From the IMG/VR virus record IMGVR_UViG_3300042540_000546, positions 1 through 23,373 of that record: a stretch of DNA of 23,373 nt. One strand, given 5' to 3'. Both the position numbers and the translations under genes were made by a program. The DNA comes from a virus. Positions 840 to 14,490 of this stretch are shown here, one piece after another; position 1 is the first letter of the stretch; every line of letters begins with the position of its first letter. The notes under the pieces are model-generated. The model was not told where the DNA came from. It was given only the letters and a program-made list of their open reading frames with translations, and did not search any database.

Positions 840-1364
840 TTATTTAATGTATTTGTCGGCTTTCAACCGCAACTGTTTAAATATTTCTTTTTGATACATA
901 GTGCGGAACTCTTTTCCGCTCTTTCTAAATTCGGTTTGGAACGCGTCTCGCATATAAAAAATCCCCACTATTCCACGCGTACCGATACTCTTTGCCATTC
1001 GCCCAGCTTCCCAAAGTTTAGTTTTTTCATCGTCTGATTTAAACAAGCTCTTCCCTTGCATCCATTCATATATCGGACTCACAGGGGGCCACGTTTTCGG
1101 GTCGCTATTCGGGCGGCGGCCCTTCTCGATTACGTCTGCATAGTTGCGCGTCGGGTCGTTTGCTTTTACCCCGAACCATTGTAATATTTGCGGCCCTCGT
1201 TTGAAGTAGCCCCAAGTTAAGGCATTCAACAAAGTACCTTTAAACACGCGATTAACCGAGCGCCCCCGAATCTCTCGCTTTTTCCTTAGATTAGCCTGAG
1301 CGCGTTTAATCACTTTCGCCCCGAATTCATCTAATAACGGTTTATATGTCTCTAATTTCGCCAC
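840..1364 (-). CDS. HK97 gp10-like tail completion / head-tail joining protein
   Basis: This is a 174-aa basic protein with the features of the HK97-gp10/minor tail family: a Lys/Arg-rich N-terminal helix (residues about 15-40), then YADVIEKGRRP and a WPPVSPIYEWM segment in mid-protein (about 76-105), and a C-terminal helix rich in Lys/Arg (about 145-174). Family members usually sit at the head-tail interface and complete the tail tube. The start is GTG at 1364, overlapping the TAG stop of the 86-aa gene by one base (TAGTG), which suggests translational coupling. Its position two genes after the tail-terminator-like domain matches the usual connector/terminator neighbourhood of siphophages. 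The family assignment rests on motif pattern and context, not on a database search. Confidence 0.65.
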   Translation of the reverse strand: MAKLETYKPLLDEFGAKVIKRAQANLRKKREIRGRSVNRVFKGTLLNALTWGYFKRGPQILQWFGVKANDPTRNYADVIEKGRRPNSDPKTWPPVSPIYEWMQGKSLFKSDDEKTKLWEAGRMAKSIGTRGIVGIFYMRDAFQTEFRKSGKEFRTMYQKEIFKQLRLKADKYIK

Positions 1365-1624: not shown

Positions 1625-4210
1625 TTAGGAAATTTTTTCAAGTTGAATGTGTGTTGCGTTGCCGTAAACGGTGGCGGTTTGACCATTCGAAGAGGTCACG
1701 AAAGCGGGCGTTAAATTCCCCGAGTTGACCCCCGTATTTATGAAAATCTCAATAACCGCTAAACCGATTTGAGTTGCCGCCTGGTTGAGTCGGTTCGTTA
1801 ACGCGGTTCCACTCGTTACCGCCTGCCATTGCATAAATTGACCCGCAAGCGCCGCGCTCGATATTTGCCCTACGTTCATCGTGGATCCACTAGGGAACGT
1901 AAATAACAAGTTAAAACCCGTCGTTGTGGTAAAACCCGACGAAACAATTAAGCGGCCTATATAACTGCTATTCGCCTCGAGTGCTAAGGTGCACCCCGTA
2001 ATGTTAGTATTAGCTGCCGTGTTCGCGTTGGTTAGGTTAGTCGCTTGAACTCCTCGCAATAACCCGAGCTCACTTTTCAAGGTTGCTAGACTTATCGCGC
2101 TAACTGTATTATCTGCATTAATGCGAACATAACGAACCGCGCTAGGATTCGGAAGCGTGGCTAGGTTAGTCCCGACCGTAGTAAGTCCGATGCTATCTTG
2201 TTTGCCATTAAACGTTGACCAGTCCGCACTAGACAAAGCCCCTCGATTTGCCGCCGAGGCCGTCGGGAGGTTGAACGTATGAGTTGACCCCGCCGAGCTA
2301 ATCGCGAAATCTGTCCCCGCCGTTCCCGTGGCTAAATTTTGAACTTGAGCGGTGAGACCATTAATCGCATTTACCCCCGTGCTAAGCGTGGTTATTACTT
2401 GGCTTAGGTGCGAATCTTCGGTGTGTAGTTTAAGCGTACGGCCTGAGGTCGTTACGAACACCCGTAAAGCTAACCTATCGGTTAATGTCATAACCGTTGG
2501 CGGTACTGCGAGAGCCGTAAAATAGGCGTCTATTGTAGTTCCGTTAGTAATATCCTCAGGCGTTGCGACGTCGGTAGCCAATAGCGTAAAAGCGGCCCCA
2601 TCGTATTTGTACAACTCAACGTAAAACGAGGGTGAACCGCCACCCGAGGACGCGCTGAAATAAAGCTCTAAATTGAAATTTCCTCCAGGAATTAGTAAAA
2701 CGTTCGGGTCGTTTGTATCGGTAATGAATTGAGCGATTAACCCGTTACCCTGTGCATTCGTTCGCGTGAAATCCGTTCCCGCTCCGAATACGGCCGTTTT
2801 ACTCATTTGGTAATAAGTCGAACCGCCAATAGTACCTTGGTTAATTGAGCCGTTAAGGTAGTAGCTAACCGACGAACCGCCTCCGCTCGTTGTCGGGAAA
2901 TTGGCGAGTTGACCGTCGCCCCTTACATACTGAGTAGCAAGCCCCGCACCCGTAACGGCGAGAGTTCCCGCCGTGGTAACAGGCGACCCGCTCACATTAA
3001 ACGCCGACGGCATCGTTAACCCCACCGAGGTAACCGAACCCCCCGCCGCTGGCGTTACCGCTTCCCAATCGCCCGAGGTTGAGTTGAACGCGAGAACCTG
3101 ACCGTTCGAAGGTGAGGGCGTATTGACGTCGCTCAAATCGTCGAGATTGACAGGCGCGGCCGTGTATTGGCTCGTATTGTCGGGAAAGGTCAAACCGCCC
3201 GCGTTCACTATCATAACGTCGCCACCGCCTGTATTATCTGTTACTGTTAAACCCGCCTTATCTAAAACGGAAAACTTTAGTCCCGATGCATTTTGCACCC
3301 CAAAAAACGCGGGGTTTATTTCGGTGTTATCATTACCATCATTAGCGGTTAATGAGCGAATTCCCAAATCCACGTTAGCAGTCGCGCCCGTGTAAGGGAC
3401 AAAAGTAGAAGGGTCGGGAATAGTTGGGAACGTTTGGAGCGCCCCCGTACCGTCGATGTATTCGCTTGAGGTTCCCGCGCCACTTATTGCAAGCGTGCCC
3501 GCTCCCGTTATGGGCGAACCTGAAACCGCAAAAGCAGAGGGAACCGTTAACGACACACTCGTGACAGTCCCACCCCCGCCGCCACCCGAGGCGCTAATAG
3601 TCACAGTCCCCGAACCGTTATCGCTAATGGTTACGTTGGTTCCTTCTTGTAAGTTGAGGAGCGATTGTGAGCCATTGTTAACGCCGTTTGTTTGCAACGT
3701 CAACCCAACGCCGCCACCCGTGCCACCTGAGCCCGAGCCTCCGATAGTAAAGTCGGCGGGAATGTCACAGGCCGACCAGTCCCACGGAACCGAGAGCGTT
3801 AATTGCAAGTTGACGCCCGCGAGGGTATGGCTAAACTCATTAATGAAAACCTCGATATTTGCCGCGCCGTCTAATTCAACCGTCGGGCCGAATACAGTTA
3901 ACCCGTTTTGAACCTCGGCCAATAAGTCCTCTGCTAATTTGATGCAATCGGAAATACATTCCCTTTGATATTCGGCGGGCGTTTCCTTATCGCGTGGTAA
4001 GTCGGCGAAAATGATAACGAAGGAGTAAAGGCGCGAACCCGCTCGAGGCTCAACCTCAACGGGGAGAACGTGCATCCACGGAAATTGAACGCCTTTCTCA
4101 ATATCAATGTTTGATAAGTCGCCGTGGCTAAACCCCTTTATTAAAAAGTGAGCCGAGGCGAAAGCCCGAAACCTCTCGATTAAAACGTTATAACTTATCT
4201 GAGTAATCAT
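1625..4210 (-). CDS. Fusion of tail-terminator-like domain with tail-fibre repeats (861 aa)
   Basis: Residues 1-150 form a compact domain (MITQISYNVLIERFRAFA ... LAGVNLQLTLSVPWDWSACD) that resembles tail terminator/neck proteins of Bacteroidetes phages. A Gly/Ser hinge (about 157-168) and a second Gly run (about 208-214) follow. The remaining ~650 residues are fibre-like: low charge, Gly/Thr/Ser/Asn-rich. A block near residues 214-263 (TVTSVSLTVPSAFAVSGSP) recurs as a variant near 392-441. There is also a LDDLSDVNTPSPSNGQVL motif (356-373) and an ALSSADWSTFNGKQ motif (658-671), both typical of phage tail fibres. The ATG at 4210 overlaps the TGA of the frameshifted chaperone (ATGA), so translation is probably coupled to it. 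A fibre attached to a terminator-type domain is unusual: the fibre would sit at the neck rather than the tip. The fibre assignment is strong, the terminator assignment moderate. Confidence 0.75.
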   Translation of the reverse strand: MITQISYNVLIERFRAFASAHFLIKGFSHGDLSNIDIEKGVQFPWMHVLPVEVEPRAGSRLYSFVIIFADLPRDKETPAEYQRECISDCIKLAEDLLAEVQNGLTVFGPTVELDGAANIEVFINEFSHTLAGVNLQLTLSVPWDWSACDIPADFTIGGSGSGGTGGGVGLTLQTNGVNNGSQSLLNLQEGTNVTISDNGSGTVTISASGGGGGGTVTSVSLTVPSAFAVSGSPITGAGTLAISGAGTSSEYIDGTGALQTFPTIPDPSTFVPYTGATANVDLGIRSLTANDGNDNTEINPAFFGVQNASGLKFSVLDKAGLTVTDNTGGGDVMIVNAGGLTFPDNTSQYTAAPVNLDDLSDVNTPSPSNGQVLAFNSTSGDWEAVTPAAGGSVTSVGLTMPSAFNVSGSPVTTAGTLAVTGAGLATQYVRGDGQLANFPTTSGGGSSVSYYLNGSINQGTIGGSTYYQMSKTAVFGAGTDFTRTNAQGNGLIAQFITDTNDPNVLLIPGGNFNLELYFSASSGGGSPSFYVELYKYDGAAFTLLATDVATPEDITNGTTIDAYFTALAVPPTVMTLTDRLALRVFVTTSGRTLKLHTEDSHLSQVITTLSTGVNAINGLTAQVQNLATGTAGTDFAISSAGSTHTFNLPTASAANRGALSSADWSTFNGKQDSIGLTTVGTNLATLPNPSAVRYVRINADNTVSAISLATLKSELGLLRGVQATNLTNANTAANTNITGCTLALEANSSYIGRLIVSSGFTTTTGFNLLFTFPSGSTMNVGQISSAALAGQFMQWQAVTSGTALTNRLNQAATQIGLAVIEIFINTGVNSGNLTPAFVTSSNGQTATVYGNATHIQLEKIS

Positions 4211-4964
4211 TTACGGTAGCTTTGTTTTATTATTCTCGCCTGTTCGCTTTGAAAATCTCTCATATAACTAAGGTGTGTAAATATCGCGGCGGCTGGCTTA
4301 TCTAAAATTAATTCGTGTTTCGTTATATCATTCTCCGCAACCGACTCGAGCACGTGGAACCAACCCCAACGCGCTAGTCCCGAGGGTGAGTAATCTCCCG
4401 AATCTCCGTCTTCAACATTCTGTCCAAAGATTGCAGCGAATTGTTGACTAATTCGGCGGCGATAGTCGAAAAAAAAAGCAGTCCCCCCTGTACTCGATCC
4501 ATAGTCAAACCGTTAACGGCCTTCATATATTTTTTGACGTTATCGCTATCGTATTTCGAAATATTGTAATATTCCCCGAGCTGCTCGGTAACGGGCCTGT
4601 AAAGAATCGACATGAGCTGAGGTAAGTTCTTATAATCGACTGTCCCGTTTTCTAGCCAAATAGATTTTGAAAGTTGGTCCAAATCCACGTGCTCGCGAAA
4701 CGTCATTGAATTCAGGTCGGGAATAAACCCCAGCTTCACGCCCTCAATAGTTACGATTGGCGTGTGGGTTTCTTTGCCCGTCAAACAAGCGGCCTCGAAT
4801 AAATCGATAACGGTTTGCACGGTTTCAACTTTCAGCCCCTCGCAATATTCGCGGCTTTTGTTTACGGCGATCATTACGCGCTCAACGTTATCGTTGGCCG
4901 TGTGGTAATCGACAAACCTTTTTAGGGTTATTTGTTCGGCGCTGACAGGGATAAAGAGTTTCAT
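4207..4964 (-). CDS. Tail assembly chaperone, -1 frameshift product, GT-like (252 aa)
   Basis: The long chaperone form shares codons 1-165 with the short product, then shifts to the -1 frame at the T run. It continues as FFFDYRRRISQQFAAIFGQN... for 87 more codons to a TGA at 4207-4209. In that frame the region has no ATG, GTG or TTG between the preceding in-frame TAA (just upstream of codon CGG-TTT-GAC) and the slip site, so it can hardly be translated on its own. The extension reads as a normal protein (GLARWGWFHVLESVAEND, HLSYMRDFQSEQARIIKQ). Its TGA overlaps the ATG of the next gene as ATGA, the same junction style used throughout the operon. By analogy with lambda GT, the T domain would recruit tail-tube subunits to the tape measure complex. 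Confidence 0.8.
4374..4964 (-). CDS. Tail assembly chaperone, short (0-frame) product, G-like
   Basis: This 196-aa protein starts with ATG at 4964, overlapping the TGA of the small terminase (ATGA). It is largely helical (for example residues about 95-190) with no enzyme motif. Its role is read from architecture: it ends shortly after a nine-T run, and a second frame opened by a -1 shift there continues to the next gene. This is the classic arrangement of siphophage tail assembly chaperones (lambda G/GT), which bind the tape measure protein and set tail length. In the zero frame, only 31 residues follow the slip site. No tape measure gene lies in this window, so it is probably outside it. Function is inferred from the frameshift arrangement and tail-gene context rather than from recognisable sequence. 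Confidence 0.75.
   Translation of the reverse strand: MKLFIPVSAEQITLKRFVDYHTANDNVERVMIAVNKSREYCEGLKVETVQTVIDLFEAACLTGKETHTPIVTIEGVKLGFIPDLNSMTFREHVDLDQLSKSIWLENGTVDYKNLPQLMSILYRPVTEQLGEYYNISKYDSDNVKKYMKAVNGLTMDRVQGGLLFFSTIAAELVNNSLQSLDRMLKTEIREITHPRD
4437..4478 (-). promoter_or_regulatory. -1 ribosomal frameshift site with downstream hairpins
   Basis: On the minus strand, C followed by nine T (4478-4469) gives zero-frame codons CTT TTT TTT TCG. The heptamer T_TTT_TTT (4476-4470) allows both tRNAs to slip back one base with full re-pairing. Downstream are two mutually exclusive stems: CGAATT/AATTCG with a 7-nt loop (4455-4437), about 14 nt after the heptamer, and GACTA/TAGTC (4467-4463 with 4450-4446). 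Either could stimulate the shift. Transcriptional slippage on the T9 run is an alternative mechanism that would give the same fused product. Confidence 0.7.
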
Positions 4965-5317
4965 AAATTAGCGCTTATTGTGATTATAGGTTGGTTGTCG
5001 GCTCCCGTGAGCTCCTGGCGTTCCACGTAACCGCGTTTTTTTCCTTTGGTCTTCATATAAAAAATCGTGGCGGCCGTATCGCCGTCATTTATTAGCCCGT
5101 GTAATTTGCTCTCGGCAAAGTCCAAAACCATATCGTCTACCTGCTCAACCGCCGCTTTATACTCGGCGTCATTCTTGAGCCAATGATAATGTATCTCGCG
5201 GCTCATACCAACGGCGGCGGCTGCTTTGGTTACGATACCTAAGTTGGCCTCGAGAGCTTCGATAAAAGCTCTTTTTTTGTTGTTAAAACCCGCGTAATCA
5301 ATCTCGTTTTTTTCCAT
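4961..5317 (-). CDS. terS: Terminase small subunit, phBC6A51-type helix-turn-helix
   Basis: This is a 118-aa protein. Residues about 12-60 (FIEALEANLGIVTKAAAAVG, MSREIHYHWLKND) form a homeodomain-like HTH of the kind found at the N-terminus of many phage small terminases. The C-terminal half (LINDGDTAATIFYMKTKGKK, then RGYVERQELTG) matches the oligomerisation segment that usually follows it. The protein should bind the packaging site and load the large subunit onto DNA. The ATG at 5317 is the only sensible start, and the stop overlaps the chaperone ATG (ATGA). The location is odd: the gene lies in the leftward tail operon, while the large subunit is on the other strand about 2 kb away. A general HTH regulator is possible, but the 'FYMKTKGKKRGYVERQE' signature favours TerS. 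Confidence 0.75.
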   Translation of the reverse strand: MEKNEIDYAGFNNKKRAFIEALEANLGIVTKAAAAVGMSREIHYHWLKNDAEYKAAVEQVDDMVLDFAESKLHGLINDGDTAATIFYMKTKGKKRGYVERQELTGADNQPIITISANL

Positions 5318-13766: not shown

Positions 13767-13878
13767 TAATATTGCCCCGACACTCAGTTATGAAAATCTT
13801 GAATACAGACCGCCGCCGCATTGCCAAAGCCTAATCGGGCGCTGGGTGTCCTTTGCGTGCGGTGGTCGTATTTATACT
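13767..13878 (+). other. Structured leader before the replication genes
   Basis: This 112-nt gap contains GACACTCAG (13779-13787) and CTGGGTGTC (13842-13850), an inverted repeat with one G-U-type mismatch, enclosing about 54 nt. Inside it, an ATG at 13790 opens a 14-codon ORF (MKILNTDRRRIAKA) ending at 13834. The outer pairing and overall length first suggested a tRNA, but the arms do not fit. A folded leader, a leader peptide or part of an origin next to the replication genes are possible. Confidence 0.3.
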
Positions 13879-14490
13879 ATGAGAACATATTGCGTTTTTT
13901 ATCGCTCTTTTTACGAGGCTCTTTCCGAGCTTCCTGAAAAGAACCAACTCGAAATTTATCGAGCTATTTTTGAACTATCACTAAACGAAAATCGTATCGA
14001 ATTAACAGGACTTTCGAAAACTATCTTCACTCTGATCGAACCTCAAGTATTGGCTAATTTACAACGTTTTAAGAACGGAAGTAAACCAAAAGAAAAGCGA
14101 AACGGAAGCGAAACAGAAGCAAAAAAAAAGCAAAAGTTAAGCGAATCAGAAGCTAATAAGAATAAGAATAAGAATGAAAATAAGAAAGAGAATGAGAATA
14201 AGAAAAAGAATTTAGAACCGCCAACACTTGAGGACGTGAAAACGTGGTTTATCGAGCAAGGATCAACCGCCGAGCAAGGGGCGAAAGCGTGGCAATACTA
14301 CACCGACGGTAATTGGCACGATGCAAAAGGCCAACCCGTCAAAAATTGGCGGCAAAAAATGAGGGGCGGGCGGTGGCTGGAGGTGAAAGCCCAACACCCC
14401 CAAACCTCTGAATTAAAAACCTACAAACCATTAAACTCATATGAACCCGAACCAAATACCGAAATTAACGACTTTCTTACCACCGAGTGA
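13879..14490 (+). CDS. DUF6291-like replication accessory / helicase-loader-type protein
   Basis: This is a 203-aa product. Residues about 1-65 (VFYRSFYEALSELPEKNQLE, IYRAIFELSLN) match the DUF6291-like domain common in phage replication modules. Residues 66-112 are a low-complexity Lys/Asn/Glu linker. Residues 113-175 form a second domain (LEDVKTWFIEQGSTAEQGAK, AWQYYTDGNW, PVKNWRQKM) of the kind that follows primosome or DnaD-like proteins. The start ATG at 13879 is chosen over GTG 13846 because the conserved domain begins there. The gene overlaps dnaB by 50 nt, which suggests a helicase-loading or origin-binding role. A nine-A run (14121-14129) lies at the start of the linker; slippage there would truncate the protein to its N-terminal domain. 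Confidence 0.65.
   Translation: MRTYCVFYRSFYEALSELPEKNQLEIYRAIFELSLNENRIELTGLSKTIFTLIEPQVLANLQRFKNGSKPKEKRNGSETEAKKKQKLSESEANKNKNKNENKKENENKKKNLEPPTLEDVKTWFIEQGSTAEQGAKAWQYYTDGNWHDAKGQPVKNWRQKMRGGRWLEVKAQHPQTSELKTYKPLNSYEPEPNTEINDFLTTE
14155..14208 (+). repeat. AATAAG-type hexanucleotide tract inside the DUF6291-like gene
   Basis: Nine successive 6-nt units (AATAAG, with variants AATGAA, AAAGAG, AATGAG, AAAAAG) encode an Asn-Lys/Glu-rich linker. Four units are exact AATAAG repeats before or after variants, so the tract may change length by slippage in steps of two residues without breaking the frame. Confidence 0.7.

Follow-up and report, generated by a model that had tools for sequence, protein, structure and literature searches.

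A conserved run of nine T joins a G-like gene to a start-less -1 extension in flavophage-like viruses: a likely recoded tail-chaperone pair

Ribosomal slippage is the rule for genes of the tail-assembly chaperone class (PMC5009743). In the lambda gpG/gpGT pair, the extension has no start codon of its own, the genes lie in a late structural operon, and the slip site is a heptamer. A second kind of recoding, transcriptional realignment, has been published for homopolymers of eight or more, with T runs above 8 (PMC3711429); in Thermus dnaX (A9) and Shigella mxiE and spa13 an A/T homopolymer separates two used frames, and the C-terminal extension of spa13 overlaps the next gene (PMC5009743). Here we describe a locus in a 23,373-base viral contig from IMG/VR, the whole of which is referred to as the window, in which a G-like gene carries a run of nine T (T9) followed by an extension in the -1 frame. 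Like the lambda pair, it combines a start-less extension with a late structural operon, whereas its slip site is T9 rather than the lambda heptamer; with the realignment sites it shares the homopolymer between two used frames and, with spa13, an extension overlapping the next gene. We estimate a probability of about 0.75 that the locus encodes a recoded G/GT-type tail-assembly chaperone pair, whichever machine slips. Its features are as follows.

4374..4964, minus strand: G-like open reading frame, 196 amino acids (aa), 0 frame; residues 1 to 165 would be common to both products
4469..4477, minus strand: putative T9 slip site (CTT TTT TTT TCG), containing T_TTT_TTT in register
4207..4470, minus strand: start-less T-like extension of 87 codons and a TGA, -1 frame
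4374..4468, minus strand: dual-coded overlap (end of the G-like protein in the 0 frame, beginning of the extension in the -1 frame)

The 0-frame codons around the run are CTG CTT TTT TTT TCG, and the nine T occupy 4477-4469. In the -1 frame, a TAA at 4515-4513 is directly followed by an open stretch beginning at 4512, which in the window has no ATG, GTG, or TTG before or near the run. Translated from 4470, the extension begins with FDYRRRISQQF and ends with KQSYRK after 87 codons; its TGA (4209-4207) overlaps the ATG of the next gene (4210-4208) as ATGA. The original prediction, which had placed T_TTT_TTT in the register of the chaperone frame and described a start-less -1 frame of 87 codons between a TAA and an ATGA, was correct in all of these coordinates. 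Normal decoding would yield the 196-aa G-like protein, whereas a minority of decoding events moving one base back at T9 would yield a GT-like protein of 252 aa (165 + 87), the first 165 residues being common to both; tandem -1 slippage of two Phe-tRNAs on T_TTT_TTT would be the simplest route. Compared with gpG/gpGT, the dual-coded overlap is about 32 codons in the window, or longer.

The run is retained at the same place across relatives. A search with the 196-aa protein retrieved 38 IMG/VR loci with 55 to 99% identity, all 38 with T9 at the equivalent position and with the -1 extension next to it wherever the locus was long enough; when the extension served as the query, loci with as little as approximately 30% identity were retrieved. 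In extension-profile scans of viral contigs, limited to the 80 best of several hundred relatives, T9 was the longest T run where the match begins in 69/69 distinct loci. Finally, 117 distinct sites with a long upstream frame followed by a long -1 frame were collected, that of the cultured Nonlabens phage P12024S alongside those of uncultured phages; 115 have T9 and two have T10. The script behind this set was seeded on runs of at least 7 T, so that run-less sites were invisible to it, a restriction from which the 69/69 result is free; furthermore, 117 is a number of sequences and not of independent events, many sites being closely related. The register of the run is xTT TTT TTT T in 110 sites and TTT TTT TTT in 5, the remaining two being those with T10, and T_TTT_TTT is in register in each of the 117. 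Upstream in the same genes, only 52% of the Phe codons are TTT, and just 11 further runs of at least nine T occur on the coding strand in 770 kb of related sequence. The conservation of T9 is far beyond chance, and the -1 arrangement that the original prediction had suggested looking for among homologues was present in all 117 related sites that could be read. Homopolymers are error-prone, and the locus might be suspected of being a continuous open reading frame broken by decay or by an error in sequencing or assembly. This is contradicted by the conservation of T9 and both frames in 117 distinct sites and a cultured phage, as well as by ratios of nonsynonymous to synonymous polymorphism (pN/pS) below 0.4 on both sides of the run; we regard it as practically inconceivable.

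In detail, the extension past the overlap showed a pN/pS of 0.27 in the -1 frame (95% interval, 0.17 to 0.38; 15 representatives), whereas the same stretch gave 0.90 and 1.32 when read in the 0 and +1 frames, respectively. A set of 33 sequences agreed (-1 frame, 0.255). For the G part, used as a control, the values were 0.35 (own frame) and 1.51 (-1 frame). As judged from these polymorphism ratios, the extension past the 0-frame stop is under purifying selection solely in the -1 frame. Within the overlap, 27% of pairs differ at fourfold degenerate third positions versus 52% upstream; this halving of synonymous change is expected if both frames are used. The comparison among relatives thus indicates dual coding, a kept run, and selection on both frames, and the -1-frame coding signal on which the original prediction depended proved to be strong.

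No start codon is shared by the -1 frames of the 117 sites, which lack even a common ATG position; 67 sites are devoid of any ATG, GTG, or TTG from the upstream stop to 40 codons into the extension. No group of homologues with a conserved start of its own was found, in line with the start-less extension originally proposed. That the extension is instead a separate gene, with its own start or translated by re-initiation, is how P12024S has been annotated (gp39, 55 aa), and an ATG, GTG, or TTG does precede T9 in the -1 frame in 9 of the 117 sites. Such a gene is contradicted by the lack of a shared start and by the conserved run, and the -1-frame similarity begins directly at T9; we consider it very improbable. 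Programmed -1 access to a conserved, start-less extension is, on the basis of these sequence comparisons, strongly supported.

P12024S provides a cultured example. Its gp38 shares 30% identity with the G part and carries ATA CTT TTT TTT TAT at the equivalent place, while gp39 (JQ823122, positions 23663-23830), annotated as hypothetical, corresponds to a C-terminal piece of the extension in the -1 frame. P12024S and P12024L thus resemble the window in having a homologous G part and a -1 extension, the match of the T run having been read in P12024S, but differ in that gp38 and gp39 are annotated as two hypothetical genes. Probably gp39 is no separate gene and instead forms the terminal part of an extension reached from gp38 by frameshifting, and the annotation of this phage is probably wrong here. 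The gp38 family is phrog_32199, listed with unknown function, and the extension alone had no match among annotated phages. The only cultured relative infects a flavobacterium; two extension-profile scans of genome contigs for a host found no relative.

Slippage of the ribosome on T_TTT_TTT needs seven T and accounts for all observations. The same two proteins would also arise if RNA polymerase slipped and some transcripts carried ten U (or seven), an explanation compatible with a chaperone pair and to which we assign somewhat less than even odds. Programmed transcriptional realignment is associated with a selected homopolymer of at least eight or nine A or T, and T9 or T10 is present in 117/117 sites; nine T is a length at which bacterial RNA polymerase slips (PMC3711429), which speaks against a ribosomal site. 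In addition, the run always comprises at least nine T, in two registers plus T10, versus seven for the ribosomal heptamer, the +1 frame past the run always stops soon (median of 6 codons, maximum of 21), and the portal genes of these phages carry a conserved run of A10 to A12, found in each of the three registers and described below, which suggests that they use polymerase slippage. Unlike dnaX, mxiE, and spa13, however, every one of the 117 sites needs the same direction, -1, and a constant -1 direction is associated with ribosomal shifting (PMC3711429) and therefore leans to the ribosome. The heptamer T_TTT_TTT is moreover in register in every site, and the run length of at least nine is only suggestive, since the second T follows from a Leu, Val, or Phe at the first codon, and -1-frame coding limits the choice at the tenth position. 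We infer, at slightly better than even odds, slippage of the ribosome and not of RNA polymerase. To our knowledge, polymerase slippage, if true, would be the first case in this gene class.

Downstream of the run, the window contains one candidate stimulatory element.

4437..4455, minus strand: 6-bp inverted repeat CGAATT/AATTCG, present but not supported as a stimulator

The hairpin named in the original prediction does exist, with its arms at 4455-4450 and 4442-4437, 13 nucleotides after the run; a stimulatory role, in contrast, found no support in a conserved structure or a compensatory pair. The mean z score for downstream RNA structure over the 117 sequences was -0.38, and the RNAalifold consensus reached -0.48 kcal/mol with 5 predicted pairs, none showing a compensatory change; both values count against a structured frameshift signal, and the whole region scored z = +1.2 in the window. 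Pairing in the hairpin is 90% retained, more than in any slid control. Of its pairs, one is invariant, and the outer pair alone changes on both sides, yet is broken in 10/29; the conserved letters can be explained by dual coding. Some known frameshift sites lack such a downstream structure.

The identification as a tail-assembly chaperone pair is likely and rests on the arrangement, the operon context, and a marginal fold match. The AlphaFold2 model of the G part (predicted local distance difference test [pLDDT] of 81) matched many unnamed phage proteins in BFVD and, weakly, two proteins annotated there as tail assembly chaperones (E values of 0.074 and 0.079); the model of the extension (pLDDT of 59.5) was too poor for use. 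A further fold match, to a protein of Flavobacterium phage 6H (E = 1.7e-5, TM score of only approximately 0.34), was set aside; the site has no T9 and an interrupted downstream frame. This 191-aa protein of 6H ends in CFFYSTR after a T6 run, and the -1 frame contains a TAG, past which there is a long frame. By analogy with lambda, the G-like protein would form a coat on the tape-measure protein, with the extension serving to recruit the tail-tube subunit. That both proteins are made, in a certain ratio, and that they act as chaperones is what we infer. The genes surrounding the pair are the following.

4961..5317, minus strand: upstream neighbor, small-terminase-like, 118 aa (phrog_4044, E = 2.6e-8)
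1625..4210, minus strand: downstream neighbor, 861 aa, its first approximately 150 aa resembling P12024S gp41, by eye only
840..1364, minus strand: tail-completion/neck-like protein, 174 aa, same operon (phrog_5, weak, E = 0.03)

In three longer relatives, the gene order is small terminase, G-like gene, a gene for 750 to 780 aa, a gene for 86 aa (in two of them), neck-like gene, genes for approximately 425 aa and approximately 1,075 aa (where complete), a tape-measure candidate of 704 to 838 aa, capsid, tube-like gene, and portal. The tape-measure candidate is located four to five genes downstream of the G-like gene in all three; one such candidate matches phrog_58 (E = 6e-5), five other records having been searched without a match, and the candidate of P12024S itself had no match in six relatives. 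With a tape-measure candidate downstream in the same late operon, the pair belongs to the tail operon, yet it does not lie beside the tape measure. The 861-aa gene of the window is glycine-rich and fiber-like past its N-terminal part.

Several results weigh against the chaperone assignment. Pfam yielded no family match, no annotated chaperone family was matched in PHROGs, and the PDB gave neither a meaningful sequence match nor a fold match; likewise, the pair is not located between tail-tube gene and tape measure, directly upstream of the latter. The proposed likeness to lambda G/GT accordingly stood in part: the late/tail operon context agrees, whereas the lengths (196 and 252 aa, with an extension of 87) are not close and the gene order differs. 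Here, the G protein is longer and the T part shorter than in lambda, a small terminase lies upstream, the tape measure follows only several genes downstream, and no match to a known chaperone family was detected. The -1 recoding might therefore be real while the pair serves another assembly step, for example, head-tail joining, as the lack of a family match and neighbors consisting of small terminase and neck/tail-completion genes, instead of tail tube and tape measure, would suggest. Nevertheless, the hallmark of tail chaperones in long-tailed phages is a short/long pair whose -1 extension lies near the 3' end, we noticed no competing pair beside the tape measure in the relatives that were read, and the marginal fold match is to chaperones; a different assembly function thus appears rather unlikely to us.

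Taken as a chaperone pair, the locus is probably a known kind of recoded gene pair in a virus group in which it was previously unrecognized; the extended version escapes gene finders. A literature search that reached few subscription papers found no description of recoding in these phages, which is weak evidence. The finding supplies a likely tail-chaperone pair for flavophage-like viruses, nearly all of whose late genes are labeled hypothetical, and the 117 sites form a clean, large comparative set for asking whether recoding of tail chaperones is always ribosomal.

A second homopolymer is located in the portal gene (21646-19841) of the window.

20502-20492, minus strand: coding-strand A11 separating the portal domain from a C-terminal extension

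Runs of A10 to A12, in all three registers, mark the junction between portal and extension in 59 of 66 distinct portals, while AAA accounts for 56% of the portal Lys codons upstream. Among the remaining portals, three end before or near the site and four (L354, L355, L366, and L383) have the extension without a run; the portal of P12024S likewise has its extension in frame and no run. In searches against phrog_33693, the P12024S-type portal profile, the portal extensions matched its C-terminal part. After the A run, the -1 frame stops within 2 to 10 codons and the +1 frame within 1 to 22. Possibly, recoding also occurs at this run, so that one gene yields both a truncated and an extended portal protein; the same restricted literature search found no portal-gene slippage described, again weak evidence. 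The portal run raises the prior for polymerase slippage, but the main finding does not depend on it. That these phages generally use RNA polymerase slippage on kept homopolymers, with T9 giving an extended chaperone and A10 to A12 two portal forms, seems doubtful to us. A run of A9 is also present at 14121-14129 on the coding strand of the plus-strand gene 13846-14490.
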